Below, piece after piece: positions 3,251 through 13,307 of a stretch of 13,307 nt of DNA. The position numbers and the translations under genes were made by a program. This stretch comes from an uncultured Polymorphobacter sp. (lineage in GTDB: Bacteria > Pseudomonadota > Alphaproteobacteria > Sphingomonadales > Sphingomonadaceae), in the NCBI GenBank assembly GCA_937871645.1, contig CALMPZ010000244.1:1-13307 (forward strand), in the 5' to 3' direction. Below the pieces are notes generated by a model. That model saw only the letters and a list, made by a program, of their open reading frames with translations. It ran no database searches and was not told where the DNA came from. The first letter of the stretch is position 1. Each line of letters starts with the position of its first letter.

Positions 3251-4918
3251 TTAGTGGCGGTAAAACACCGGCTTGCCCGCCAGCCAGGTTTCCTCGACCA
3301 GCGTGCCGCGAATCGCTGCCGGCGGGCCGGTGAAGATGTCGCGGTCGATGATGATGAAATCGGCCCATTTGCCCGGCGTCAGCGTGCCGGCGAAATTGTC
3401 CTCGAAATTGGCATAGGCGGCCCCCGTGGTGAACGCCGCAAACGCCTGCTCGATGGTCATCTTCTCGGTGGGGATCCAGCCGCCCGGCGGTGCATTGTCG
3501 GCGTCCTGTCGGGTCACCGCAGCATGCAACCCGTAGAACGGGTTGGGCGATTCGACCGGGAAGTCCGAGCCGCCGGCATAGCGCGCGCCCGACTTGAGCA
3601 ACGTCGCCCAGGCATAGGCGCCCTTGAGCCGTTCGGCGCCAATGCGCGCCTCGGCCATGTTCATGTCCGATGTCGCGTGCGTCGGCTGCATGCTGGCGAT
3701 GACATTCAGCGACGCGAAGCGCGACAGGTCGGGCAGCGCCACCACCTGCGCATGTTCGATGCGCGGCCGCAGCGCGACGCGCTGTGCCGGCGTCAGTCGC
3801 GCGAAACTATCGAGCACCTGCGCGTTGGCGGCATCACCGATGGCGTGGACATTGGGCTGGAAGCCGCGCGCCGCCGCACTGGCGACCTGCGCGTCCATCT
3901 CGCCCTGCGTGCTGAACAGCAGCCCCTTGTTGCCCGACGCGTCGCTGTAGGGCGCGAGCAATGCCGCGCCGCGCGACCCGAGCGCACCGTCGCCGTAGAG
4001 CTTGACCGACATCAGCGCCAGCCGGTCGGTGCCTGCCCATTTGATCGGGCCGTTCGGTGCGATCTTGGCCAGCGCGTCCATACCACCCGCCATCGCATAG
4101 ATACGTGCGGTCAGCTTGCCGTCACGGTCGAACGCCTGCAGCCGCGCGAAGTCGTCCGCCGACACGCCGGCATCGCCGACGCCGGTCAGCCCGACCGAGG
4201 CCATGATGAATAGCGCCTTCGCCAGCGCGGCATTGTCTTCGGCAGGTGTCGCCGGCGGAATGACTGCAGCAACGAGGTCGATGGCGCCATCGACAAGCAC
4301 GCCGGTCGGGTTGCCTGCGGCGTCGCGTTCGATGCGACCACCGGCGGGATCAGCGGTCTTGGCGGTGATGCCCGCCGCCGCCAGCGCCTTCGAATTGAGC
4401 CAGATCGCATGGCCGTCGATACGGCGCAGCGCCACCGGCCGGTCGGCCACGACGCTGTCGAGTTCGGCAGCGGTCGGGAAACGCCCGAGCTTCCAGATTT
4501 CCTGGTTCCAGCCGCCGCCCTGCAGCCACGCGCGCTGCGGGTTGGCCGTCGCATAGGCCTTGAGCGCCGCCTGCGCCGCCGCCAGCGTCGGTGTCGCCGT
4601 CAGGTCAAGCGCCAGCGCCTGCGCGCCAAGATTTTCGACATGGCCATGCGCATCGATCAGCCCCGGCAATAATGTGCGGGTATGTACATCGATGCGCTTG
4701 TCGCCGGCCCCCAGCGGCGGCAACGGCGCGCCCTTGGGCAGCGTCGCGCTGACCCGTCCGGCATCGTCGATCAACAGGGTCGCAAAGCGTTGTAGCTTGC
4801 CCGCCGCGTCGAGCGTGTAGCCGTTGGCGTTGGTGATCTGCGTCGCGGCATTTGCGGTACCGGCAAGCAGGACAGCGGACGACGCAAGCGCCAAAACAAT
4901 CCAACGCGAAGCGTTCAC
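3251..4918 (-). CDS. Exported YtcJ-type amidohydrolase (amidohydrolase family 3)
   Basis: This encodes 555 residues with an N-terminal Sec signal: basic start, hydrophobic core WIVLALASSAVLLAG, probable cleavage after ANA at about residue 24. It is therefore likely periplasmic. Metal-site motifs appear in family order: DAHGH (89-93), KLYGDGALGSRG (306-316), HAIGD (358-362), RIEHAQ (386-391) and GSDFPVESPNP (450-460), with a composite-sheet C-terminus ending ADFIIIDRDIF. The family hydrolyses amide or other C-N bonds with a metal; the substrate cannot be predicted. The start codon is GTG at 4918, overlapping the stop codon of the upstream gene as GTGA, with GAGG 7 bases upstream. It is therefore probably translationally coupled as the last gene of the TelA operon. 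That partnership is unusual. Confidence 0.92.
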   Translation of the reverse strand: MNASRWIVLALASSAVLLAGTANAATQITNANGYTLDAAGKLQRFATLLIDDAGRVSATLPKGAPLPPLGAGDKRIDVHTRTLLPGLIDAHGHVENLGAQALALDLTATPTLAAAQAALKAYATANPQRAWLQGGGWNQEIWKLGRFPTAAELDSVVADRPVALRRIDGHAIWLNSKALAAAGITAKTADPAGGRIERDAAGNPTGVLVDGAIDLVAAVIPPATPAEDNAALAKALFIMASVGLTGVGDAGVSADDFARLQAFDRDGKLTARIYAMAGGMDALAKIAPNGPIKWAGTDRLALMSVKLYGDGALGSRGAALLAPYSDASGNKGLLFSTQGEMDAQVASAAARGFQPNVHAIGDAANAQVLDSFARLTPAQRVALRPRIEHAQVVALPDLSRFASLNVIASMQPTHATSDMNMAEARIGAERLKGAYAWATLLKSGARYAGGSDFPVESPNPFYGLHAAVTRQDADNAPPGGWIPTEKMTIEQAFAAFTTGAAYANFEDNFAGTLTPGKWADFIIIDRDIFTGPPAAIRGTLVEETWLAGKPVFYRH

Positions 4919-5646
4919 TTGATTTCCTCGTTGCCATACCGGGATTCGAGGAAGCGGCCCTGGATCAGGAACGCGTTTCGGTCGCCTTCAGCGAGCTGCT
5001 CGGAGACGCGCGCCAGCTCGCTGTCGACCACGGTCAGTCCGTCGATCAGCCGTTTTTCGATATTGCTACCATCCGGTGCGTCCACCTTGCGCTGCGCGAC
5101 CGGCACCTTGGTATAGCGGTCGACGAGTTCGGGCAGGTGCTGCCCGAGCAGGCGGTTCAAATCCGCCGCGACCGGATCATTCGCCGGCAGTGCCGCCAGC
5201 TGCGGTTCGAGCACCGCGAGTCGCGCTGAAATCGAATCGATCTGCGGCGCTGCAAGTGCCGGCAGCGCACGGCGGCGGCGGTCGAGCCAGGCGTCGGTCA
5301 TCGCCGGCAACTTGGCCGGTGCGCTGCGCACGATGGTTGTCGCATCGGGGGCCGGCGGGCGCGGATAGATGCCGAGCAGCACCAGCGTGACGATTGTCGC
5401 CATGATGATGGTCATCAGCATCGATGTGCCGATACCGCCGGCAACCAGTCCCCAGCCGATGCTGCCGACGATCACCACAGCAACCAGCATCAGCATCCGC
5501 GTAAGCTTCGACGCCATGTCGCGGATGGCGCGCTGGCGACGGCGCGATGCGGCCTGCACCTGCGCGGCACGCGACACCGGGCCGACCGGCAATGCCCGGC
5601 GCCGCGCGTCCTGACGGCGCGCTTCTTCGGTCGCGTCGAATGCCAT
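4915..5646 (-). CDS. Two-TM protein, probable XpaC-like partner of TelA
   Basis: This encodes 243 residues. An arginine-rich cytoplasmic N-terminus (about 1-48) is followed by two hydrophobic segments (about 51-70 and 74-95) and a helical C-terminal domain ending in conserved-looking blocks: HLPELVDRYTKV, NIEKRLIDGLTVVDSEL and FLIQGRFLESRYG. This layout (two TM helices, then a helical tail rich in L-P-x-L and leading to an E-L-x-x-L-type end) resembles the XpaC family, which stands next to TelA/YaaN genes in Bacillus and elsewhere. The match is from pattern and context, so moderate. ATG 5646 follows the telA stop after one base. The frame is open further upstream to 5718, but that would overlap telA. 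The 3' end overlaps the amidohydrolase start by four bases. Function unknown; a membrane role with TelA is inferred. Confidence 0.65.
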   Translation of the reverse strand: MAFDATEEARRQDARRRALPVGPVSRAAQVQAASRRRQRAIRDMASKLTRMLMLVAVVIVGSIGWGLVAGGIGTSMLMTIIMATIVTLVLLGIYPRPPAPDATTIVRSAPAKLPAMTDAWLDRRRRALPALAAPQIDSISARLAVLEPQLAALPANDPVAADLNRLLGQHLPELVDRYTKVPVAQRKVDAPDGSNIEKRLIDGLTVVDSELARVSEQLAEGDRNAFLIQGRFLESRYGNEEIK

Positions 5647-5647
5647 C

Positions 5648-6862
5648 TTAGCCGGCAAGCGCGGTGAACGGCGATGCCGACGCCGGCAGCGCCTTGGCGT
5701 TCGCCGCGCCTTCGGCACGCGCGATATAGCCGCGGCTCTTTTCGACTTCGGTCGACAGCGTGCCGATGGTGGTCTTCATCGAATCGAGCGCCTTCAGCTT
5801 GAACGTGTCGATGGCGTCCATCGTGTCATAGACGTTCTGGAACGCGCGCTGCAGCGTCTCGACCGGGATGGTCGACGAGGCGGCGGCTTCGTGGATCTTG
5901 CCGGTCTGCGTCTTGAGCAGGTCGCCGGTCGAATCGATCATGCCGGCGGTGGTCTTGTTGAGTGCGCCGATCTGTTCGAGCACGAGGCGCTGGTTGGTCA
6001 GCGCCTGCGCGACGGTCACCGCGGTACGCAGCGCCGATACCGTGGTCGTCGAGGCACGGTCGACGCCCTTGACCAGCTCGACATTGTTCTTCTTGACGAG
6101 GTCGAGCGCCAGATAGCCCTGCACGCTGACCGCCATCTGCGTCAGCAGGTCGGTGGTGCGCTGGCGCACGTAGAATAGCGCGCTTTCGCGGATCGCCTTG
6201 GCCTTTGCCGGTTCATTGTACTCAAGCTCGTCAGCCTTGGCTTCGAGCGCGGTGTCGAGCGTCTTCGAGATGTGGATCATCTGCTCGAGCTTGCCCATCG
6301 TTGCCCACAGGTTGGCGCGTTCCTGGTCGATCGCGGCATTGTCGTGGAGCAGCTCGTCCTTGCCCGACGCCAGCCGCGTCAGGATCGTCGAAATGTGGCT
6401 TTGCGCCGATTTGTAGCCGTCGAAATACTGGCGGATCTTATTGCCGCGCGGGATGATGCCGAACAGCTTTTTCGGCTGGAACATGTCCTGGCGCTTGCCG
6501 GGGTCGAGGTCCTCGATGGTGCGGCGCAGTTCGGTCAGGTTGGCGCCGATGCCGGTGTCCGAATCGATGGCGCGCACCGGCCGGTCGAGGAAGCGGTTGC
6601 TGTGGCCCGAGGCTTCCTTGATCTCGGCGGCACCGAGGTTGGTCAGCCGGTCGACTTCGGCGCCGAATTCGGGCGAGTTGGCGTCCTTCGACACCAAAGT
6701 CTCGACATAGGCCGCGACATTGGCGTCGAGCTTGCTCGTCTGTTCGGGCTTCAACGGCACCAGCCCGGCGGCCTTGCCGGGCGCGACCACCGCGACAGGC
6801 GTCGGCGGCGTCAGCACGATGGTGGGCTCGGCGGTCGCGGTAACAGTCGGATCACTGGCCAT
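5648..6862 (-). CDS. telA: TelA-family toxic anion resistance protein
   Basis: This encodes 404 residues, close to the usual family length. After a proline/valine-rich, probably disordered N-terminus (about 1-40), the rest is almost entirely helical with coiled-coil character. It includes the family signature around 259-282 (NNVELVKGVDRASTTTVSAL) and the earlier FQPKKLFGIIPRGNKIRQYF block (128-147). Members (TelA/KlaA/YaaN) were first linked to tellurite resistance and more widely to envelope stress; the mechanism is not established. No signal peptide or TM segment is seen, so it is cytosolic. ATG 6862 has AAGGAG 10 bases upstream; the frame is open to 6913, but that would add an unsupported tail. 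It heads the operon with the XpaC-like gene one base downstream. Confidence 0.92.
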   Translation of the reverse strand: MASDPTVTATAEPTIVLTPPTPVAVVAPGKAAGLVPLKPEQTSKLDANVAAYVETLVSKDANSPEFGAEVDRLTNLGAAEIKEASGHSNRFLDRPVRAIDSDTGIGANLTELRRTIEDLDPGKRQDMFQPKKLFGIIPRGNKIRQYFDGYKSAQSHISTILTRLASGKDELLHDNAAIDQERANLWATMGKLEQMIHISKTLDTALEAKADELEYNEPAKAKAIRESALFYVRQRTTDLLTQMAVSVQGYLALDLVKKNNVELVKGVDRASTTTVSALRTAVTVAQALTNQRLVLEQIGALNKTTAGMIDSTGDLLKTQTGKIHEAAASSTIPVETLQRAFQNVYDTMDAIDTFKLKALDSMKTTIGTLSTEVEKSRGYIARAEGAANAKALPASASPFTALAG

Positions 6863-6939
6863 TTGGGGCAAACTCCTTGGGGCAATGGCGCACACTAGCA
6901 AATGGGCCAGCATGAAGCGAGGCCATCTGTGTTGTAGCT

Positions 6940-7006: not shown

Positions 7007-7588
7007 TCAGGCGAGCAGCCGCGCCACTGTCACGTCGACGACGCGCCGGGCGGCATCGGACGACAACCCCTGCGTATGGCGCAGCCGGTTCCAGCCTTCG
7101 AAGCTCAGGACCATGTCGAGCGCTTCGATGCGGTCGGCGTCAACGGCGTCTGCGGGCACCACATACTGCAGCCGCATGCGCAGGAAGCGGTCGAGCTTTT
7201 CGATATCGGCCTGCAGTGCCGGCGACCGCAGCCGGTAGCCATCGGCGGCACGGCGATACGGCGCAATGCTTTCGAACACCGCAAAGCGCCGGTCGATCAT
7301 TTCCACGAGCTTGCCGCGCCAGTCGGTACTGGTGAACGGCTGCTTGGCTGCAGCCAAGAATTCGCTTTCGAGCCGCAGCGACATTTCGCGGTACAGGCTC
7401 TCCATGTCGTTGAAATGCCGGAACACGCTGCGAATGCCGACTTTGGCGGTCGCGGCGACTTCCTCGGCATTGGGTGTGGTCTTGCCGGCCAGCACCAGTT
7501 CGAGCAGCGCATCGACGATCCGCGCGCGGCTGCGTTCGGAGCGACGGTGACGACCGTCTAGCGTTTCGGATTTAAGCACTTCAGACAT
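7007..7588 (-). CDS. TetR/AcrR-family transcriptional regulator
   Basis: This encodes 193 residues, normal for TetR regulators. The N-terminal DNA-binding domain spans about residues 15-65. The helix-turn-helix reads TTPNAEEVAATAKVGIRSVF with the typical F-R-H-F-N-D-M-E-S-L-Y end (about 37-67), where most members have Y-x-H-F-x-x-K-x-x-L. The C-terminal ligand domain is variable and gives no hint of the effector. ATG 7588 has AAGGA 6 bases upstream. It lies 66 bases downstream of the sulfatase gene on the same strand and may be co-transcribed with it. If so, the DUF4345-sulfatase-tetR unit would be autoregulated through the palindrome at 9781-9801 (inference). It could alternatively regulate the TelA operon, which starts 144 bases further on. 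Confidence 0.93.
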   Translation of the reverse strand: MSEVLKSETLDGRHRRSERSRARIVDALLELVLAGKTTPNAEEVAATAKVGIRSVFRHFNDMESLYREMSLRLESEFLAAAKQPFTSTDWRGKLVEMIDRRFAVFESIAPYRRAADGYRLRSPALQADIEKLDRFLRMRLQYVVPADAVDADRIEALDMVLSFEGWNRLRHTQGLSSDAARRVVDVTVARLLA

Positions 7589-7654
7589 GACACATCCTTG
7601 ACTGGGCGCGCCGCCTACCCTGTCGTCAGCGCTGCGTCTACACCGCAGTATGCC

Positions 7655-9325
7655 CTAGTTCGACCAGTAGATGAAATCCTCGTTCGGCTTGGCCGGGAAA
7701 GATAACGGTCGGTCGACAGGGATCGCGCTCTGCGTCAGGCTCGGCCACATCGGCGCACGTTGCTGGGCGTCCTGCGCACGCTGCAGCGCGTTGAGTTCGG
7801 CGACCTTGGCGGGGTTGCTCGCGGCCAGGTTGACGCGCTCGGTCGGATCGACCGCGAGGTTGAACAGGAAGTCGCGGCGCGGCAGGTCGAGATGCTGGAG
7901 CTTCCAGCCGCCCGACTGGACGACGCGGTAGTCGCCCGAGCGCCAGAACAGCGCCTTGTGCGGCTCGCCGCGCGCCTTGCCCTGCGCCCAGGGCAGCAAG
8001 TCGACGCCGTCGATCGGCCGGTCGGCGGGCAGCGCGGCACCCGCGGCGGCGGCCGCCGTGCTGAACAGGTCGAACGTCGATACCGGCGCCGGCGAGGTCG
8101 AGCCTGCAGCAATCTGCGCCGGCCAGCGGATGGCAAATGGCACGCGGATGCCGCCTTCGAAGAAGGTGATTTTCCAGCCGCGATACGGCGCGTTGATGTC
8201 GGGCAGACCGATATAGTGCGGGCCGCCGTTGTCGCTGGTGAACACCACCATCGTGTTGTTGTCGAGGCCTTGGCGCTTGAGCTCGGCCATGACGCGCCCG
8301 ATGCCGCGGTCGAGCGCCACCATCATCGCGGCATAGACGCGCAGGCGATGGCCCTCGGGCGTGCTGTCGTCGATCATGGTCAACGCGTCATAGTCGGACT
8401 TCTTCGCCTGCAGAGGCGTGTGCGGCGCATTATAGGCCAGATACATGAAGAAGGGCCGGTTGCGGTTGGCCTTGATGGCATCGACCGCCTGTGTGGACAG
8501 ATAGTCGGTCATGTACTCGTTCGGCGCGAAGCGCTTGCCGCCGTTGTACTGCACGCTGAATGGCAAATTGGCCCACAGGAACTTGTCGATCGGGTCGAAG
8601 TCCTGCTTGGCGTTGACGACGTTCGGGTCATCCTTGGGCAGGAACATCTGCCCGCCGATGATGAAGCCCAGTGACTCGTCGAAGCCCTGTTCCTCGGGCC
8701 GCATGCCCTTGCCGCCGCCGAGGTGCCATTTGCCGAGGTGGACGGTGTGATAGTCGCGGGACTTGAGCAGTTCGGCGATGGTGATTTCGGATGCCGGGAC
8801 GCCCTGGTCGTCCTGCGGCGGCTGCCTGTCGACATTTTCTTCGTGGAAGATCGTCGGGTGGCCCATGTCGTTGGGGAACTTCGAAATGTAGCGCGCCATC
8901 GGCGTGCCGGTCGACGTGAACTCGAAGCCGAAGCGCGTCGGGTAGCGGCCGGTCATCAGCGCGGCGCGTGTCGGTGAGCACGTCGCATTGCCGGCATAGC
9001 CGTTGGTGAACTGCACGCCCTGGCGCAGCAGCGCATCGATGTTGGGGGTCGGCACCGCACCGTTGGCCAGCCCGCCGCCGTTGACCGTGATGTCGTTGAA
9101 GCCGAGGTCATCGGCGAGGATGTAGATGATGTTCGGCGCCCGCGCGTCGGGTGCTGCCGTCGCGGTCGCCGGGCCCTGCTGCCAGGGCACCGGATGGTTG
9201 GGTTCAACGTGCGGCGCGAGCAAGCCCGGCAGGTGCAGGAACAAATAGTCGCGCGCCAGATAGGCGGCACCGCCGACCACGACGAGACCGACTGCTGTCG
9301 TCGCCAGCAGCTTCTTGAGCTTCAT
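7655..9325 (-). CDS. Exported formylglycine-type sulfatase (arylsulfatase family)
   Basis: This encodes 556 residues with an N-terminal hydrophobic segment (MKLKKLLATTAVGLVVVGG) acting as signal or membrane anchor, so it is expected in the periplasm. Class I sulfatase motifs are all present: metal-binding D72/D73 in ILADDLGFND, the C-x-P-x-R maturation site CSPTR at 116-120 (C116 becomes formylglycine) followed by AALMTGRYPTRFGFE, HLGKWHLG (K199, H201), APHTP (H302), TSDNGG (D365, N366) and WKITFFEGG with K385. It cleaves sulfate esters using calcium; the substrate is unknown. Maturation needs a formylglycine-generating enzyme, which is not in this window. ATG 9325 was chosen for AAAGGG about 7 bases upstream; a TTG at 9349 is an in-frame alternative. 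It lies 49 bases after the DUF4345 gene. Confidence 0.95.
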   Translation of the reverse strand: MKLKKLLATTAVGLVVVGGAAYLARDYLFLHLPGLLAPHVEPNHPVPWQQGPATATAAPDARAPNIIYILADDLGFNDITVNGGGLANGAVPTPNIDALLRQGVQFTNGYAGNATCSPTRAALMTGRYPTRFGFEFTSTGTPMARYISKFPNDMGHPTIFHEENVDRQPPQDDQGVPASEITIAELLKSRDYHTVHLGKWHLGGGKGMRPEEQGFDESLGFIIGGQMFLPKDDPNVVNAKQDFDPIDKFLWANLPFSVQYNGGKRFAPNEYMTDYLSTQAVDAIKANRNRPFFMYLAYNAPHTPLQAKKSDYDALTMIDDSTPEGHRLRVYAAMMVALDRGIGRVMAELKRQGLDNNTMVVFTSDNGGPHYIGLPDINAPYRGWKITFFEGGIRVPFAIRWPAQIAAGSTSPAPVSTFDLFSTAAAAAGAALPADRPIDGVDLLPWAQGKARGEPHKALFWRSGDYRVVQSGGWKLQHLDLPRRDFLFNLAVDPTERVNLAASNPAKVAELNALQRAQDAQQRAPMWPSLTQSAIPVDRPLSFPAKPNEDFIYWSN

Positions 9326-9374
9326 GATGCGCCCTTTCGTTCGGGACAAATTGTCGCGGCGTGCCGCGTGTCGA

Positions 9375-9752
9375 TCAACGCGCCGGCAGCGTCCGGAAAC
9401 CGGTGACGACGATGAGCATCATGACAATTTCGGCAACGATCGGCTCGACCGAGCCGGGGACGACGCCGTCAACCATGAAGCTGACGAGGCGGCCGAGAAT
9501 CGCGCACGCCAGCAGCACAATCGGCACCAGCAGCGGCCAGCGCACCGACTTCCACGCCGCAAACAGCGCAAACAGCGCGCCGCTGACGAAAAAGCCGAAC
9601 ATGTCGGCGCGCAGCGTGGCGTGGCCGAGCAGGGACAAGGGCGCCAGTGCGAAGTTCGCGGCTGCCTCGACCGGGCGCAACAGGAACAGCGTCCCGACGA
9701 AAAGCATGAACAGTGCCTGGGCGGCAATTGCCAGCCGGATGAAAATTTGCAT
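9375..9752 (-). CDS. Small four-helix membrane protein, DUF4345-like
   Basis: This encodes 125 residues with about four hydrophobic segments: LAIAAQALFMLFVGTLFLL at the start, MFGFFVSGALFALFAAW, WPLLVPIVLLACAILGRL and a last one IVAEIVMMLIVV. The order of features fits the DUF4345 family: a first helix ending in L-x-P, an R-x-D/G between helices, A-I-L-G-R-L then a D-G turn, and a glutamate in the last helix. No biochemical role is established. ATG 9752 is preferred over the longer frame to 9866, because GGAG stands 11 bases upstream and the extra residues would run into the divergent promoter region. It is the first gene of the minus-strand unit leading into the sulfatase. A membrane role alongside the sulfatase is inferred only from position. 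Confidence 0.75.
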   Translation of the reverse strand: MQIFIRLAIAAQALFMLFVGTLFLLRPVEAAANFALAPLSLLGHATLRADMFGFFVSGALFALFAAWKSVRWPLLVPIVLLACAILGRLVSFMVDGVVPGSVEPIVAEIVMMLIVVTGFRTLPAR

Positions 9753-9780
9753 AAGTCGCTTCGCTCCCCGATTTTGTGGT

Positions 9781-9801
9781 AATGACATTACATGTGTCGT
9801 T
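9781..9801. promoter_or_regulatory. Candidate operator (imperfect 21-bp palindrome)
   Basis: Half-sites AATGACA (9781-9787) and TGTCGTT (9795-9801) mirror each other with one mismatch around a 7-base centre. Size and spacing suit a TetR-type dimer. It lies between the divergent DUF4345 and SCP2 genes and covers the -10 region of the minus-strand promoter-like sequence, as expected for a repressor site. Confidence 0.5.
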
Positions 9802-9812
9802 AGATTTGACAA
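9785..9812 (-). promoter_or_regulatory. Candidate promoter of the DUF4345-sulfatase unit
   Basis: On the minus strand, TTGTCA (9812-9807, five of six matches) is followed after 16 bases by TAATGT (9790-9785), about 33 bases before the DUF4345 start at 9752. It overlaps the palindrome at 9781-9801. Confidence 0.4.
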
Positions 9813-9834
9813 GTGGGCATTCACACGGCAAATG
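9806..9834 (+). promoter_or_regulatory. Weak candidate promoter of the SCP2 unit
   Basis: A perfect TTGACA (9806-9811) lies about 78 bases before the SCP2 start. The hexamer expected near 9829 is a poor -10 match, so only the -35 box is convincing. It shares bases with the -35 box of the opposite-strand promoter, so the two directions would compete. Confidence 0.25.
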
Positions 9835-9888
9835 GGGGCCAACGACGCGGCAATGGTGTCGCGCAATCAACCTAGGGAAAGGATTACC

Positions 9889-10191
9889 ATGACGCTCGAC
9901 GAAATCACCAAGGGCATGTCCGAACGCGTTGCTGCCAAGGGCGGCATCAAGGGCAAGGTCGTCAAGTTCAACTTCGGCGATGACGGCTGCGTCCGCATCG
10001 ACGCCAAGGCCGATCCCGCCGTTGTCGACAACGCCAACTCGGACGCCGATTGCACCGTCAAGATCTCGAAGTCGGACTTCATCGACATGTCGACGGGCAA
10101 GCTTGACAGCATGAGCGCATTCATGACCGGCAAGCTCAAGATCGAAGGCGACATGGGCATCGCCATGCAGCTCGGCACGATCCTGAGCTGA
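9889..10191 (+). CDS. Single-domain SCP2 sterol/lipid-carrier protein
   Basis: This encodes 100 residues and consists of one SCP2 domain. The core reads VVKFNFGDDGCVRIDAKADP, then DADCTVKISKSDFIDMSTGKLD with the typical end FMTGKLKIEGDMGIAMQLG, which is the best-conserved part of the family. SCP2 domains bind hydrophobic ligands such as sterols or fatty acyl groups in a central cavity. No signal peptide is present, so it is cytosolic. ATG 9889 has AAAGGA 6 bases upstream. It is the first gene of a plus-strand set with gaps of 26 and 6 bases to the next two genes, and diverges from the DUF4345-sulfatase unit. An SCP2-like domain also forms the C-terminal part of SdsA-type alkylsulfatases, which makes its place beside sulfatase-type hydrolases notable. 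Confidence 0.93.
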   Translation: MTLDEITKGMSERVAAKGGIKGKVVKFNFGDDGCVRIDAKADPAVVDNANSDADCTVKISKSDFIDMSTGKLDSMSAFMTGKLKIEGDMGIAMQLGTILS

Positions 10192-10217
10192 ACCTGCCAA
10201 AACCACGGAGTACACCC

Positions 10218-10499
10218 ATGTTTTGCAAGATCGTCGTGACCGGCATCCTCGCTGCTGCCGCAATTTCGGTTCCGGCTCTCGCCGATGCCAAGTCGGCAGC
10301 CACCTGCGCTTCCGGCCTCAACAAGGACGCGCAGCTTATCTACAATGCGATGGCGCCGAAGGTCACGCCAACCACCGATCTGCAGGACGAGGTCAAGTCG
10401 ACCACGGTCGGGCTGGTCATGGGCGGCCAGATCGACCGTGCCAACGCCAAGCCGGCAGCGCAAGCTGCTGGCCAGTGCCTCGCCCAGCTGAAGGGCTAA
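10218..10499 (+). CDS. Small exported protein with two cysteines, unknown function
   Basis: This encodes 93 residues. A clear Sec signal peptide covers about 1-24 (IVVTGILAAAAISVPALADA, cleavage after ALA or ADA). The mature part is about 70 residues and has two cysteines, C30 near its start and C87 near its end, well placed for one disulfide in the periplasm. The sequence between them looks helical (DAQLIYNAMAPKV, DLQDEVKSTTVGLVMGG). I do not recognise a family. ATG 10218 has GGAG about 8 bases upstream. The gene lies 26 bases after the SCP2 gene and 6 bases before the MBL-fold gene, so it is almost certainly co-transcribed with both. A role as an accessory or binding protein for the exported hydrolase is possible but is inference only. 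Confidence 0.8.
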   Translation: MFCKIVVTGILAAAAISVPALADAKSAATCASGLNKDAQLIYNAMAPKVTPTTDLQDEVKSTTVGLVMGGQIDRANAKPAAQAAGQCLAQLKG

Positions 10500-10505
10500 A
10501 GTCCC

Positions 10506-11594
10506 ATGCGCACCGTCACCAAGGTCATCGCCTCAGTTGCGGCGCTGGCCATGGTGGCGGGCGCAGTCGGCTACAGCCAGCGCGGCGCCATCGCGCAGCG
10601 CATGTTCGTGCGCGGCGTCACTGCCGCCATGGCGACCGACCCGATCAAGCAACTCCCCGACGGGCTACACGTCATCCTGTGCGGTGCGGGTTCGCCGCTG
10701 CCTGACCCCAAGCGCGCCGGGCCGTGCGTTGCGGTGGTTGCCGGCCAGCGGCTGTTCGTCGTCGATGTCGGTGACGGCGCCGTCCGCAAGCTGGGCCAGA
10801 TGGGCATCAACGCCAGCCGCGCCGAAGCGGTGCTGCTGACGCATTTCCATTCGGATCATATCGACGGACTTGGCGGCTTCATGCTCCAGCATTGGGGCGG
10901 CGGCGCGTCGAAGGCCCCGCTGCCGGTGCACGGCCCGCAAGGTGTCGAACAAGTCGTCGCCGGTTTCAACGCCGCCTATGTGCTCGATAGCGGCTACCGC
11001 ATCGCGCACCACGGCCCCGGCGTCATGCCGCCGTCGGGCATCGGCGGCGTCGCGCTGCCGTTCCAGATTGCCCAGGGCGGGCCTTCGGCGGTGCTCATCG
11101 ACACCCCCGACCTCAAGGTCACGGCGTTCCCGGTCAACCATGCGCCGGTCGAGCCCGCTGTCGGCTACAAGTTCACCTACAAGGGCCGTACCGTCGTCAT
11201 CAGCGGCGATACCGCGCCGTCAAAGCGTGTCGAGGCGGAGGCCAAGGGCGCCGATTTGCTGGTCCACGAAGCGCTGTCGCCAGAACTCGTCAGGATTCAG
11301 GAAACCGCCGCGCTCAAGGCCGGCCGCAACAACCTTGCGCATGTTTTTGCCGACATTCCGGACTACCACACCACGCCCACCGGTGCGGCGGTCATCGCGC
11401 AGGCCGCCGGCGTCAAGATGCTGCTGCTCGATCACATCGTGCCGGGGCTGCCGTTCAAGGCACTCGAAATCCCGTTCGTCGGCGATGCGCGCAGCAAGTT
11501 CTCGGGGCCGCTGCAGGTCGGCCATGACGGCGACCGCGTCAGCCTGCCGGCGAACAGCGACAAGATCGAAACCGGCAGCGCGCTGCGCTTCTAG
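10506..11594 (+). CDS. Exported metallo-beta-lactamase-fold hydrolase (AtsA/tRNase Z-like)
   Basis: This encodes 362 residues. The N-terminus VIASVAALAMVAGAVGY is a signal peptide or anchor, pointing to an envelope location and away from true tRNase Z. The hydrolase domain starts with HVILCGAGSPLPDPKRAGPC and carries the two-metal ligands: HFHSDH (113-118), H212 in NHAPVEP, D235 in ISGDTAPS, H254 in LLVHEAL and a late H310 in LLLDHIVP; YHTTPTGAA (287-295) is also typical of this subgroup. Relatives include the AtsA-type arylsulfatase of Pseudoalteromonas and other exported MBL hydrolases, so activity on a sulfate ester, phosphodiester or lactone is possible. ATG 10506 follows the previous stop after 6 bases; its Shine-Dalgarno is weak, suggesting coupled translation. 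Confidence 0.92.
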   Translation: MRTVTKVIASVAALAMVAGAVGYSQRGAIAQRMFVRGVTAAMATDPIKQLPDGLHVILCGAGSPLPDPKRAGPCVAVVAGQRLFVVDVGDGAVRKLGQMGINASRAEAVLLTHFHSDHIDGLGGFMLQHWGGGASKAPLPVHGPQGVEQVVAGFNAAYVLDSGYRIAHHGPGVMPPSGIGGVALPFQIAQGGPSAVLIDTPDLKVTAFPVNHAPVEPAVGYKFTYKGRTVVISGDTAPSKRVEAEAKGADLLVHEALSPELVRIQETAALKAGRNNLAHVFADIPDYHTTPTGAAVIAQAAGVKMLLLDHIVPGLPFKALEIPFVGDARSKFSGPLQVGHDGDRVSLPANSDKIETGSALRF

Positions 11595-11865: not shown

Positions 11866-12519
11866 CTACCCCCGCTTCTGCATGCCCTTGAGCTTCAACC
11901 GCCACTCAAGCTGGTCATACCGGTCCTGACCAAAGAACGGCTCGCCGTCGACCGCCATCATCGGCACGCCGTAGTGACCGGCCTCGCGCTGCGCCGCCTG
12001 ACTGGCGTCGATGATGGCGTCGAGGCGTTCGGCGTCGCGGGCGGCAATGACATCCATCGCGGCAAGGTCGAGCCCGGCGCGCGCGGCGGCGTTGGCCAGA
12101 TGGTCGCCCTCGTGCCAGCCGATGGTGTTGCCGTCCCAGATGAGCTGGCTGACCGCGTCGAGGAATGCGAGGCCCCGGCCCATTTCGGTTGCCACCTGGC
12201 CCAACCGCGTCAGCCGGTGGATATAGGGTTGCTCCTTGGGATAGGTGCGCGTCGCAAAGTCCATCACCACCGGATCAGGGCGCGGCCAGTGAAACGGCAG
12301 CCCGAGGAACGCTGCGGTGCGGTAGGTATCCTTGGCGAGATAGGTGAACCACAGCGGGTCGGAATTGGCGAAGAATTCGGGCTGGCGCACCGCGATCGGA
12401 TAGACGACGCGGACGTTGCATTTGACGTCATAGTCGCGCTCCATCGCCACTAGCCGGCTGGTGACCAGGTACGAATACGGCGAACGGAACGACCAGAACA
12501 GGTCATATTCCAAGGTCAT
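11866..12519 (-). CDS. DsbA-family isomerase (2-hydroxychromene-2-carboxylate isomerase / kappa-GST type)
   Basis: This encodes 217 residues with the thioredoxin-like fold of the HCCA isomerase/kappa-GST family. The N-terminal strand-turn reads YDLFWSFRSPYSYL, with S13-P-Y-S in place of the C-x-x-C of DsbA; S13 is the expected glutathione-activating serine. The helical insert runs from about 45 to 175. The cis-proline motif GVPMMAVDGEPFFGQDR at 184-200 closes the fold. Members use glutathione to isomerise aromatic ring-cleavage intermediates or act as glutathione transferases; the substrate here is unknown. ATG 12519 overlaps the upstream stop as ATGA and has GGGGGGA about 7 bases upstream, which beats an in-frame GTG at 12534. 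It is co-transcribed with the GST-like gene upstream. Confidence 0.88.
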   Translation of the reverse strand: MTLEYDLFWSFRSPYSYLVTSRLVAMERDYDVKCNVRVVYPIAVRQPEFFANSDPLWFTYLAKDTYRTAAFLGLPFHWPRPDPVVMDFATRTYPKEQPYIHRLTRLGQVATEMGRGLAFLDAVSQLIWDGNTIGWHEGDHLANAAARAGLDLAAMDVIAARDAERLDAIIDASQAAQREAGHYGVPMMAVDGEPFFGQDRYDQLEWRLKLKGMQKRG

Positions 12520-13307
12520 TGCGTGTCCCCCCACACTTCAAGATTATTGTCGCGTTCGACGCGACGCGCCGGCCGACAGGCGAGCAGCGGCGTCAGGCTG
12601 GTGCGCGCGAACAGCGCATCGAGCCGCGCGCGGGAATCGGCATCGAGCGCATCGGCGGCGTCGAGAATGCGCTGCAGCAGGTAAAGCCGGTACGGAAACA
12701 CCCCGACAGTGAGCCGCTGGCCGCGCCAGTCGAAGCTGGTTTCGCCCATGACGCGGACGTTGGGTTTGACCGTCGCCAGCGCGCCGGTCGTCACCGGATT
12801 GGCAGCGAGCCAGTCGTTGGCGAACGCCGTCATCGCGACGATTTCGGGCAGATAATCCTCGGCAACATAGGCCAGCAAAATTGCGAAGCTTTCGGGGATG
12901 CTGTCATCGGCGAACAGCGCCTCGCTGAAATCGCCATATTCGCCGGCGTCATGGTCGGGGGCATTCATGCGCTCGGTCCAGCGCCAGACGCGCCATGCCT
13001 TGGCCTTCATCAACGCTGCCGGATGCAGGTCGCGACCGAGATGCGCGTAGAGCGCGGCGATCAAGCCATAGTCGCCGATCGTCGGGCGGCCGCCGAGCAG
13101 GTACGGGCTGTGCGCCAGATGCGCATCGAAACGCGCGAGGAAATCGAGGTAGCTGGCTTCGATGGCCGGGGCGGAGTCGGGGGTGACGCCGAATATCTGC
13201 GCGGCGCGGCGCATGCGCTTTGATGACAGCGCAATCTGTTCGGCTTGCTCCTCGGCGCTGGCGAGCGGCAGCAGCGAGCCGGCGAAGTCGCGCGCGCGGA
13301 AGGCCTC
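12516..13307 (-). CDS. Glutathione S-transferase-like protein (N-terminus outside window)
   Basis: The frame is open to the right edge, giving 263 residues without the start. ATG 13214 is internal: the codons before it (GSLLPLASAEEQAEQIALSS) continue the same protein. The visible part begins near the junction after a missing thioredoxin-like domain and contains the all-helical GST C-terminal domain, with the clear motif SPYLLGGRPTIGDYGLIAALYAHLGRD. About 170 more residues follow, longer than a standard GST. They include AILLAYVAEDYLPEIVAM, and the end includes FDWRGQRLTVGVFPYRLYLLQRIL. This extended layout is seen in a group of GST-like proteins of proteobacteria with no defined substrate. 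The stop overlaps the next gene's start (ATGA), so both are probably made together and act in a glutathione-dependent pathway (inference). Confidence 0.85.
   Translation of the reverse strand, partial: EAFRARDFAGSLLPLASAEEQAEQIALSSKRMRRAAQIFGVTPDSAPAIEASYLDFLARFDAHLAHSPYLLGGRPTIGDYGLIAALYAHLGRDLHPAALMKAKAWRVWRWTERMNAPDHDAGEYGDFSEALFADDSIPESFAILLAYVAEDYLPEIVAMTAFANDWLAANPVTTGALATVKPNVRVMGETSFDWRGQRLTVGVFPYRLYLLQRILDAADALDADSRARLDALFARTSLTPLLACRPARRVERDNNLEVWGDTQ

Follow-up and report, generated by a model that had tools for sequence, protein, structure and literature searches.

The 13,307-base stretch of DNA analysed here (the window) is the complete contig C244 of a Polymorphobacter-type genome (G000) and carries six genes in two back-to-back arms: a DUF4345 membrane protein, a class I sulfatase (SulfA) and a TetR-family regulator on one strand, and a stand-alone SCP2 lipid carrier, a small exported protein and a membrane-anchored hydrolase of the metallo-β-lactamase (MBL) fold on the other. 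They form one part of a wider, dispersed regulon, whose operons are preceded by copies of a 23-bp operator that lies between the two arms. Based on its gene content, we propose, with a probability of roughly 0.6, that this regulon is catabolic, is controlled by TetR and acts on an amphiphilic organosulfate bearing halogen as well. All six reading frames are open and lie on the strands given in an earlier note on this DNA, and the single pathway that this note had proposed to join the sulfatase, the MBL hydrolase, the SCP2 protein and the TetR regulator is supported by the co-occurrence of sulfatase and MBL protein across families and by the common operator.

An operator shared by dispersed operons

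The inverted repeat between the arms, overlooked in the earlier note, reads TAATGACATTACATGTGTCGTTA, with 8-base arms (7 of 8 positions matching) around a 7-base spacer, and is placed 28 bases from the DUF4345 start (9752) and 87 bases from the SCP2 start (9889). In no fewer than ten families, operators with the same spacing recur before genes for sulfatase, MBL, haloalkane dehalogenase (HLD), glutathione S-transferase (GST), SCP2, DUF4345 and DUF1330. Used as a pattern with three mismatches allowed, the window repeat revealed 77 sites in 2.37 Mb of loci, as compared to 5 in one Markov control. A position weight matrix (PWM), trained on 20 sites which the window-derived pattern gave in the same loci, with this genus left out, found 121 sites of at least 13 bits there, whilst five column-permuted matrices found 8, 5, 6, 2 and 13; since the matrix was trained on these loci, the site counts are partly in-sample, and the motif-first search described below provides the out-of-sample test. 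A site lies at most 200 bases upstream of 14/17 DUF4345, 8/9 SCP2, 25/48 HLD, 44/110 MBL, 7/15 f15 (a membrane protein of 211 residues), 28/85 sulfatase, 10/49 GST and 8/55 TetR genes, and of 21/1650 other genes. Across whole site-led operons, an operon with two sites being counted twice, we found 52 sulfatases, 52 MBL proteins, 41 TetR regulators, 32 GSTs, 31 dehalogenases, 24 DUF1330 proteins, 19 formylglycine-generating enzymes (FGE) and 12 DUF2855 proteins (f16); the label f7 covers both a membrane protein of about 140 residues and a short-chain dehydrogenase/reductase family, and its counts were left unused. Around SulfA, 24 of the 26 places outside the window were fetched, leaving out two further places in G234, and a site leads an operon in 16 of these 24 stretches (23 genomes outside the window). 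Those 16 stretches span nine families (f11, f17, f25, f98, f123, f128, f130, f153 and f174), or ten with that of the window.

Within the window's own genome, the pattern gave 11 hits and a control pattern 7. The top site by the matrix (C635, 38.0 bits) lies between the SulfB-dehalogenase and f15-oxidoreductase genes, SulfB being a second, PAS-like sulfatase; the next (C417, 30.6 bits) precedes genes for a DUF1330 protein and a small membrane protein, and the window site, which serves both window operons, ranks third. They are followed by a site just upstream of a bona fide HLD (C70, 24.5 bits) and one located 101 bases before a DUF2855-family gene (C563, 20.9 bits; L177:1405-2472), which over the greater part of its length shares 31 to 46% identity with family members elsewhere, some of them operator-led. 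Behind each of these five best sites stand families found clustered with MBL or SulfA in genomes other than this one; the remaining hits score 13.4, 9.0 and, for four of them, below zero.

A strict form of the motif was then used to search 279 genomes regardless of their genes, and revealed 32 sites in 20 genomes, the reversed control pattern matching 3 genomes. MBL, SulfA or HLD is present in ten of the 20, which carry 22 of the sites and include all seven genomes with at least two strict sites; the ten others have a single site each, seven with no called gene behind it and three with unrelated genes. Strict sites occur in 9/26 genomes with MBL or SulfA and in 11/253 without them, one of these 11 (G196) having an HLD. 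Thirteen of the 22 sites fall outside all stretches fetched earlier, and 12 of these (all except G323:C309) lead to members of the gene set: a dehalogenase-GST pair (G188), SulfB (G218, G321), DUF1330 with f15 (G323), f15 (G188, G196) and, in six genomes (G106, G218, G220, G240, G321, G323), the family f190. Before this test, f190 was known from two loci, and was operator-led in one; leaving it out of the count, 7/13 sites lead to members, or 9/13 when the TauD type is included. The other side of the f190 sites carries a TauD-type gene twice and a DsbA-like gene once. One HLD (L209) stands directly behind a motif-first site and another (L208) on a motif-first contig.

The f190 family itself comprises exported proteins of 210 to 233 residues with a GDGS motif, repeatedly found behind the operator as regulon members (for example L201:4129-4764, L200:4065-4766, L206:3357-4001 and L209:6364-6996); the two members scanned gave no significant Pfam match. 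In two genomes of one genus, a cytochrome P450 gene is divergent from a two-domain DsbA-like gene across the operator (L136:15148-16404, L138:4289-5527).

A palindromic site is found in the promoters of both regulator and targets, as for TetR-type regulators, and the window TetR is the third gene of a site-led operon. Its product is the likely repressor of the regulon and would bind the operator. By eye, P. arshaanensis, the nearest named relative (MBL protein 95% identical), has a second similar-looking TetR (L175:7759-8349) near a DUF1330 operon; these regulators may be paralogous or divide the sites between them.

Co-occurrence and gene neighbourhoods

The MBL protein, SulfA, SulfB (from P. 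arshaanensis) and an HLD (from L054) were searched in the same 385 alphaproteobacterial genomes, with E limits of 1e-60 for the first three and 1e-40 for HLD; presence counts are lower bounds, at most 5, 3, 2 and 5 candidates per genome being scored for MBL, SulfA, SulfB and HLD. MBL is present in at least 32 genomes, SulfA in at least 24 and both in at least 22 (expected 2.0), with SulfA genomes spanning 14 families, in all of which MBL is present. HLD, found in at least 53 genomes, accompanies SulfA in at least 21 (expected 3.3) and MBL in at least 23 (expected 4.4). The same genes might have no common pathway and simply be held by sulfatase-rich, catabolically versatile genomes. SulfB served as a control for this explanation: at E 1e-60 it is found in 36 genomes and also co-occurs with MBL (18/36), SulfA (18/36) and HLD (22/36), whereas at E 1e-100 MBL is present in only 7 of 21 SulfB genomes (expected 1.75) and in 2 of the 16 without SulfA, as compared to 22 of 24 SulfA genomes; HLD is found in 10 of the 21 (expected 2.9) and in 5 of those 16. 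From this control, sulfatase-rich genomes explain part of the signal, and the MBL link is strongest to SulfA; moreover, genome richness does not produce a common operator. The explanation is largely refuted, and we regard it as highly improbable.

The distribution also bears on a detoxification or xenobiotic regulon, directed against surfactant sulfates and synthetic haloalkanes. Gene lists of this kind typically include GSTs, dehalogenases and sulfatases, and a plasmid module for sodium dodecyl sulfate is reportedly known (PMC3346939, PMC10779009); on the other hand, SulfA and MBL occur together in 14 families, including in the 1.7-Mb genomes G115 and G344, and a search of 72,556 plasmids gave no match for MBL (E 1e-40) and seven records for SulfA, all below 38% identity. 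A plasmid origin was rejected on these grounds. SulfA and MBL therefore appear old, widespread and chromosomal, which suggests a natural substrate and renders a detoxification role unlikely.

At closer range, profile searches within 10.5 kb of MBL, in the best 80 of 493 confirmed loci (a phylogenetically non-independent sample), found a TetR of the same subfamily in 45, an alpha/beta (dehalogenase-type) hydrolase in 40, a sulfatase in 38, GST in 30, DUF1330 in 28, FGE in 23, DUF4345 in 15 and SCP2 in 8; separate clustering of loci placed SulfA in 29, SulfB in 21 and both in 12. The earlier note had named a lack of joint conservation of the two arms as grounds for refutation, and the arms are indeed kept together only in part. 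Their six-gene order is identical in two other genomes of the genus (L031, L060); outside it the arms are mostly rearranged or apart, whilst their parts stand under the same operator in many genomes. Of 16 MBL genomes that belong to the family or order but not to this genus, only three (G021, G087, G094) have a sulfatase within about 10 kb of MBL. The idea of a hydrophobic sulfate ester as substrate likewise holds in part: SCP2 occurs with TetR, MBL and sulfatase in six Sphingomonadaceae metagenome-assembled genomes of another lineage, yet in only the 8 of 80 MBL loci given above. For a few of the 80 loci, the title of the record refers to a lake (ErkenSummer, LakeFargette).

Enzymes of the gene set and layout of the window

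By domain and motif, SulfA is a class I (formylglycine) sulfatase, and sulfate-ester hydrolysis is its predicted activity. The motif C-x-[PA]-x-R-x4-TG is present in the window protein and in 48/55 SulfA-type sequences of the loci, and the own genome encodes an FGE (PF03781, G000:C67:2849-3751, 272 bits). The nearest solved relatives are carrageenan S1 sulfatases (290 bits), with a steryl sulfatase further behind (162 bits). Use of algal sulfated polysaccharides, with SulfA as a carrageenan-type sulfatase, could be read from these best matches, and SulfA does have its domain and formylglycine motif in common with class I carrageenan sulfatases (S1_19 and relatives). It differs from them, however, in its N-terminal anchor and in a gene context of lipid rather than polysaccharide type: no glycoside hydrolases were found among the Pfam-scanned family representatives, the context instead being dehalogenase, GST, SCP2, P450 and enoyl-CoA hydratase. 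Polysaccharide use is accordingly very unlikely.

Among solved structures, the MBL protein comes nearest to an AtsA-type arylsulfatase and to PNGM-1, and RNase Z follows at little distance. The residues of its HxHxDH motif (H113, H115, D117 and H118) are invariant in 50 aligned sequences, and the protein is 29.7% identical over 283 residues to 8gyg (Pseudoalteromonas atlantica), which is a relative of AtsA and not AtsA itself; inclusion among the AtsA-type MBL arylsulfatases of SulfAtlas S4 is described as requiring at least 30% identity to AtsA (PMC5066984). The window protein is membrane-anchored and scores below every RNase Z cut-off. Its relatives are often automatically named 'ribonuclease Z' in public records. 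The earlier note had drawn an analogy to SdsA1-type alkylsulfatases (SulfAtlas S3), in which an MBL enzyme and an SCP2-like domain come together as here, although in one chain there and as separate genes here, which sets the window proteins outside that type. We dropped this analogy, AtsA, PNGM-1 and RNase Z being closer relatives of the MBL protein. Family searches found no alkylsulfatase, dimerisation or SCP2-like domains in the MBL protein, and there were no SdsA-type chains among the 50 matches listed for it, an absence that excludes nothing. The window SCP2 matches Alkyl_sulf_C below threshold (21.2 bits, cut-off 27), and its nearest solved chain is a nonspecific lipid-transfer protein (53 bits). 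The TauD-type protein, present in a few operons, was considered as an alkylsulfate dioxygenase and rejected: it matches phenoxypropionate and taurine dioxygenases with 263 and 223 bits, versus 160 for AtsK, and because of this weaker match we do not claim it as an alkylsulfatase.

The recurrent alpha/beta hydrolase of the loci is a subfamily-I HLD. The locus member L054 matches the solved HLD 5esr with 490 bits, a likeness that extends to the conserved catalytic residues; 5esr we take to be DccA of Caulobacter crescentus. NCBIfam NF002043 is passed by L054, by 7/10 further locus members, by L209 and L208, and by the own-genome HLD behind the C70 site (C70:3395; 450 bits, cut-off 265), whilst the divergent members L031, L037:7118 and L147 fall below the cut-off. 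With residue roles as established for DhlA, the nucleophilic Asp and the Trp next to it are invariant in 48/48 members, the catalytic His and the acid are kept in 47/48 each, and the second Trp in 43/48.

Comparison with P. arshaanensis indicates that the window stops inside a larger cluster. There, the order TetR, SulfA, DUF4345 / SCP2, small protein, MBL continues with DsbA-like, GST, enoyl-CoA hydratase, GST, PF03060 oxidoreductase and f15, and ends with SulfB and a dehalogenase-like gene; in the own genome, contig C635 holds SulfB, its dehalogenase-like partner, f15 and the oxidoreductase. The DsbA-like protein (presumably of kappa-GST type) and the truncated GST at the right end of the window probably belong to the same gene set (11866-13307), a link overlooked in the earlier note: in P. 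arshaanensis the full GST gene encodes 384 residues (L031:11836-12990), and its operon begins at the operator L031:16548. Gene calls in relatives were made by a codon-score caller.

Table 1 Features of the window, with the scores on which each assignment is based.
Feature	Position	Strand	Evidence
TetR-family regulator	7007-7588	-	TetR_N 20 bits, just under cut-off 24
Class I (formylglycine) sulfatase SulfA, N-terminal hydrophobic segment	7655-9325	-	PF00884 183 bits, cut-off 25
Formylglycine motif CSPTRAALMTG, SulfA residues 116-126	8948-8980	-	Derived from start 9325
DUF4345 small membrane protein, first gene of minus-strand operon	9375-9752	-	PF14248 23.6 bits, just under cut-off 26.5
Operator, inverted repeat TAATGACA-N7-TGTCGTTA between the arms	9780-9802		29.6 bits, PWM trained without this genus
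Stand-alone SCP2 lipid carrier	9889-10191	+	PF02036 72 bits, above cut-off
Small exported protein	10218-10499	+	No match in Pfam scan
Membrane-anchored MBL-fold hydrolase, AtsA / PNGM-1 / RNase Z clan	10506-11594	+	Lactamase_B_2 58 bits, above cut-off
DsbA-like protein, last gene of GST operon	11866-12519	-	PF01323 61.5 bits
Glutathione S-transferase, 5' end cut by contig end	12516-13307	-	GST_C_2 27.6 bits

For SulfA, an alternative TTG start at 9349 is less likely than that at 9325, and a longer DUF4345 frame, up to 9866, would cover the intergenic region. Among the clustered loci, the small exported protein was seen in this genus alone, its family comprising three loci (window, L031 and L060). 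To the left of the TetR gene, window positions 3251-6913 hold an amidohydrolase (PF07969), TelA and a frame that we take to be XpaC-like; these neighbours adjoin TetR, are kept in L031 and L060, and no link to the regulon was seen for them. The first reading frame (39-740) is presumably a methionine sulfoxide reductase, with a true start that probably lies downstream of the listed one (3 or 39).

Candidate substrates

The presence of HLDs and GSTs in the same regulon, overlooked in the earlier note, alters which substrate class is likely. We infer the following order of steps and compartments: an effector would release the TetR repressor, which controls the dispersed operons via the 23-bp operator and its copies; the exported, membrane-anchored sulfatases SulfA and SulfB, together with the MBL hydrolase, would cleave ester groups of the organosulfate in the periplasm; the product would enter the cell, perhaps passed on by SCP2; and HLDs, glutathione transferases, the PF03060 flavin mononucleotide oxidoreductase and enoyl-CoA hydratase would there remove the halogens and degrade the carbon chain. 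A lipid-chain substrate with both sulfate and halogen would account for the whole gene list.

Several observations weigh against this proposal. No site lies directly upstream of any of 37 FGE genes, and only 3 of 31 DUF1330 genes have one; 8 of the 24 SulfA-centred stretches, including f49 genomes with all three genes, have no operator-led operon, and the strict motif is missing from 17 of the 26 genomes that hold MBL or SulfA. SulfA was not found in 10 of the 32 MBL-bearing genomes (these counts being lower bounds), the PF00884 search gave no match at all in G004, G016 and G024, which have MBL, and for 13 of the 16 MBL loci from the wider family or order, this genus excluded, no sulfatase is found within about 10 kb. 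The close arrangement thus varies, and a part of the MBL relatives must function in the absence of a sulfatase. SulfB too, and not SulfA alone, co-occurs with MBL and HLD above expectation, and the 80 MBL neighbourhoods are not independent of one another. Among the loci, SCP2 occurs only in this genus and in a single lineage of Sphingomonadaceae. Lastly, the dehalogenase-like protein beside SulfB on C635 reaches 230 bits with NF002043, below the cut-off of 265, while keeping the D-W and G-H motifs.

In a pathway for a steroid, sterol or other non-halogenated lipid sulfate, as the earlier note had envisaged, a terpenoid or alkyl sulfate would be the target of the sulfatases, of SCP2 and of the MBL protein as an esterase or lactonase, and the dehalogenase-type hydrolases would be epoxide or ester hydrolases. 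SCP2 does sit in the operon, a P450, a TauD-type dioxygenase, the PF03060 oxidoreductase and enoyl-CoA hydratase are among the operator-led operons, and a steryl sulfatase is among the solved relatives of SulfA, though behind the carrageenan sulfatases. We nevertheless consider this doubtful, as most of the linked hydrolases scanned pass the HLD model, with subfamily-I residues conserved, and no steroid-degradation genes were recognised among the family representatives scanned. The open-licence literature searched yielded no combination of sulfatase with SCP2, steroid or Sphingomonas.

Within the halogenated organosulfate proposal, a tentative possibility is that the regulon represents a pathway, widespread in bacteria, that acts on chlorosulfolipids, which are chlorinated alkyl sulfates and disulfates of chrysophytes and other algae. 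The first chlorosulfolipids are reported to have come from Ochromonas danica, a freshwater chrysophyte; some bear as many as two sulfates, and the class has now also been detected in coastal sea water (PMC13413282). Two sulfatase types would then serve the two sulfates, and hydrolytic and glutathione-dependent dehalogenation would be followed by degradation of the chain. By titles and abstract starts, the open-licence literature gave no report of bacterial chlorosulfolipid breakdown, of HLDs linked to sulfatases or to such a regulon, or of an HLD and sulfatase gene cluster; the enzymes are of known kinds, and their combination under one conserved operator was not found described in the literature searched. 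HLDs are widely used enzymes. The biological function of many characterised HLDs has been called unknown (PMC3938430), and it has been suggested earlier that natural halogenated compounds are involved in their role (PMC6299022).

Taken together, the conserved operator groups HLDs with sulfatases, GSTs and a lipid carrier in a single regulon, which makes their natural substrate class directly and cheaply testable. It also provides a first functional setting for the MBL family automatically named 'ribonuclease Z' and for subfamilies of DUF1330, DUF2855 and DUF4345. If the substrates are indeed chlorosulfolipids, this would give a natural role to subfamily-I HLDs such as DccA, and would name a sink for algal organochlorines.

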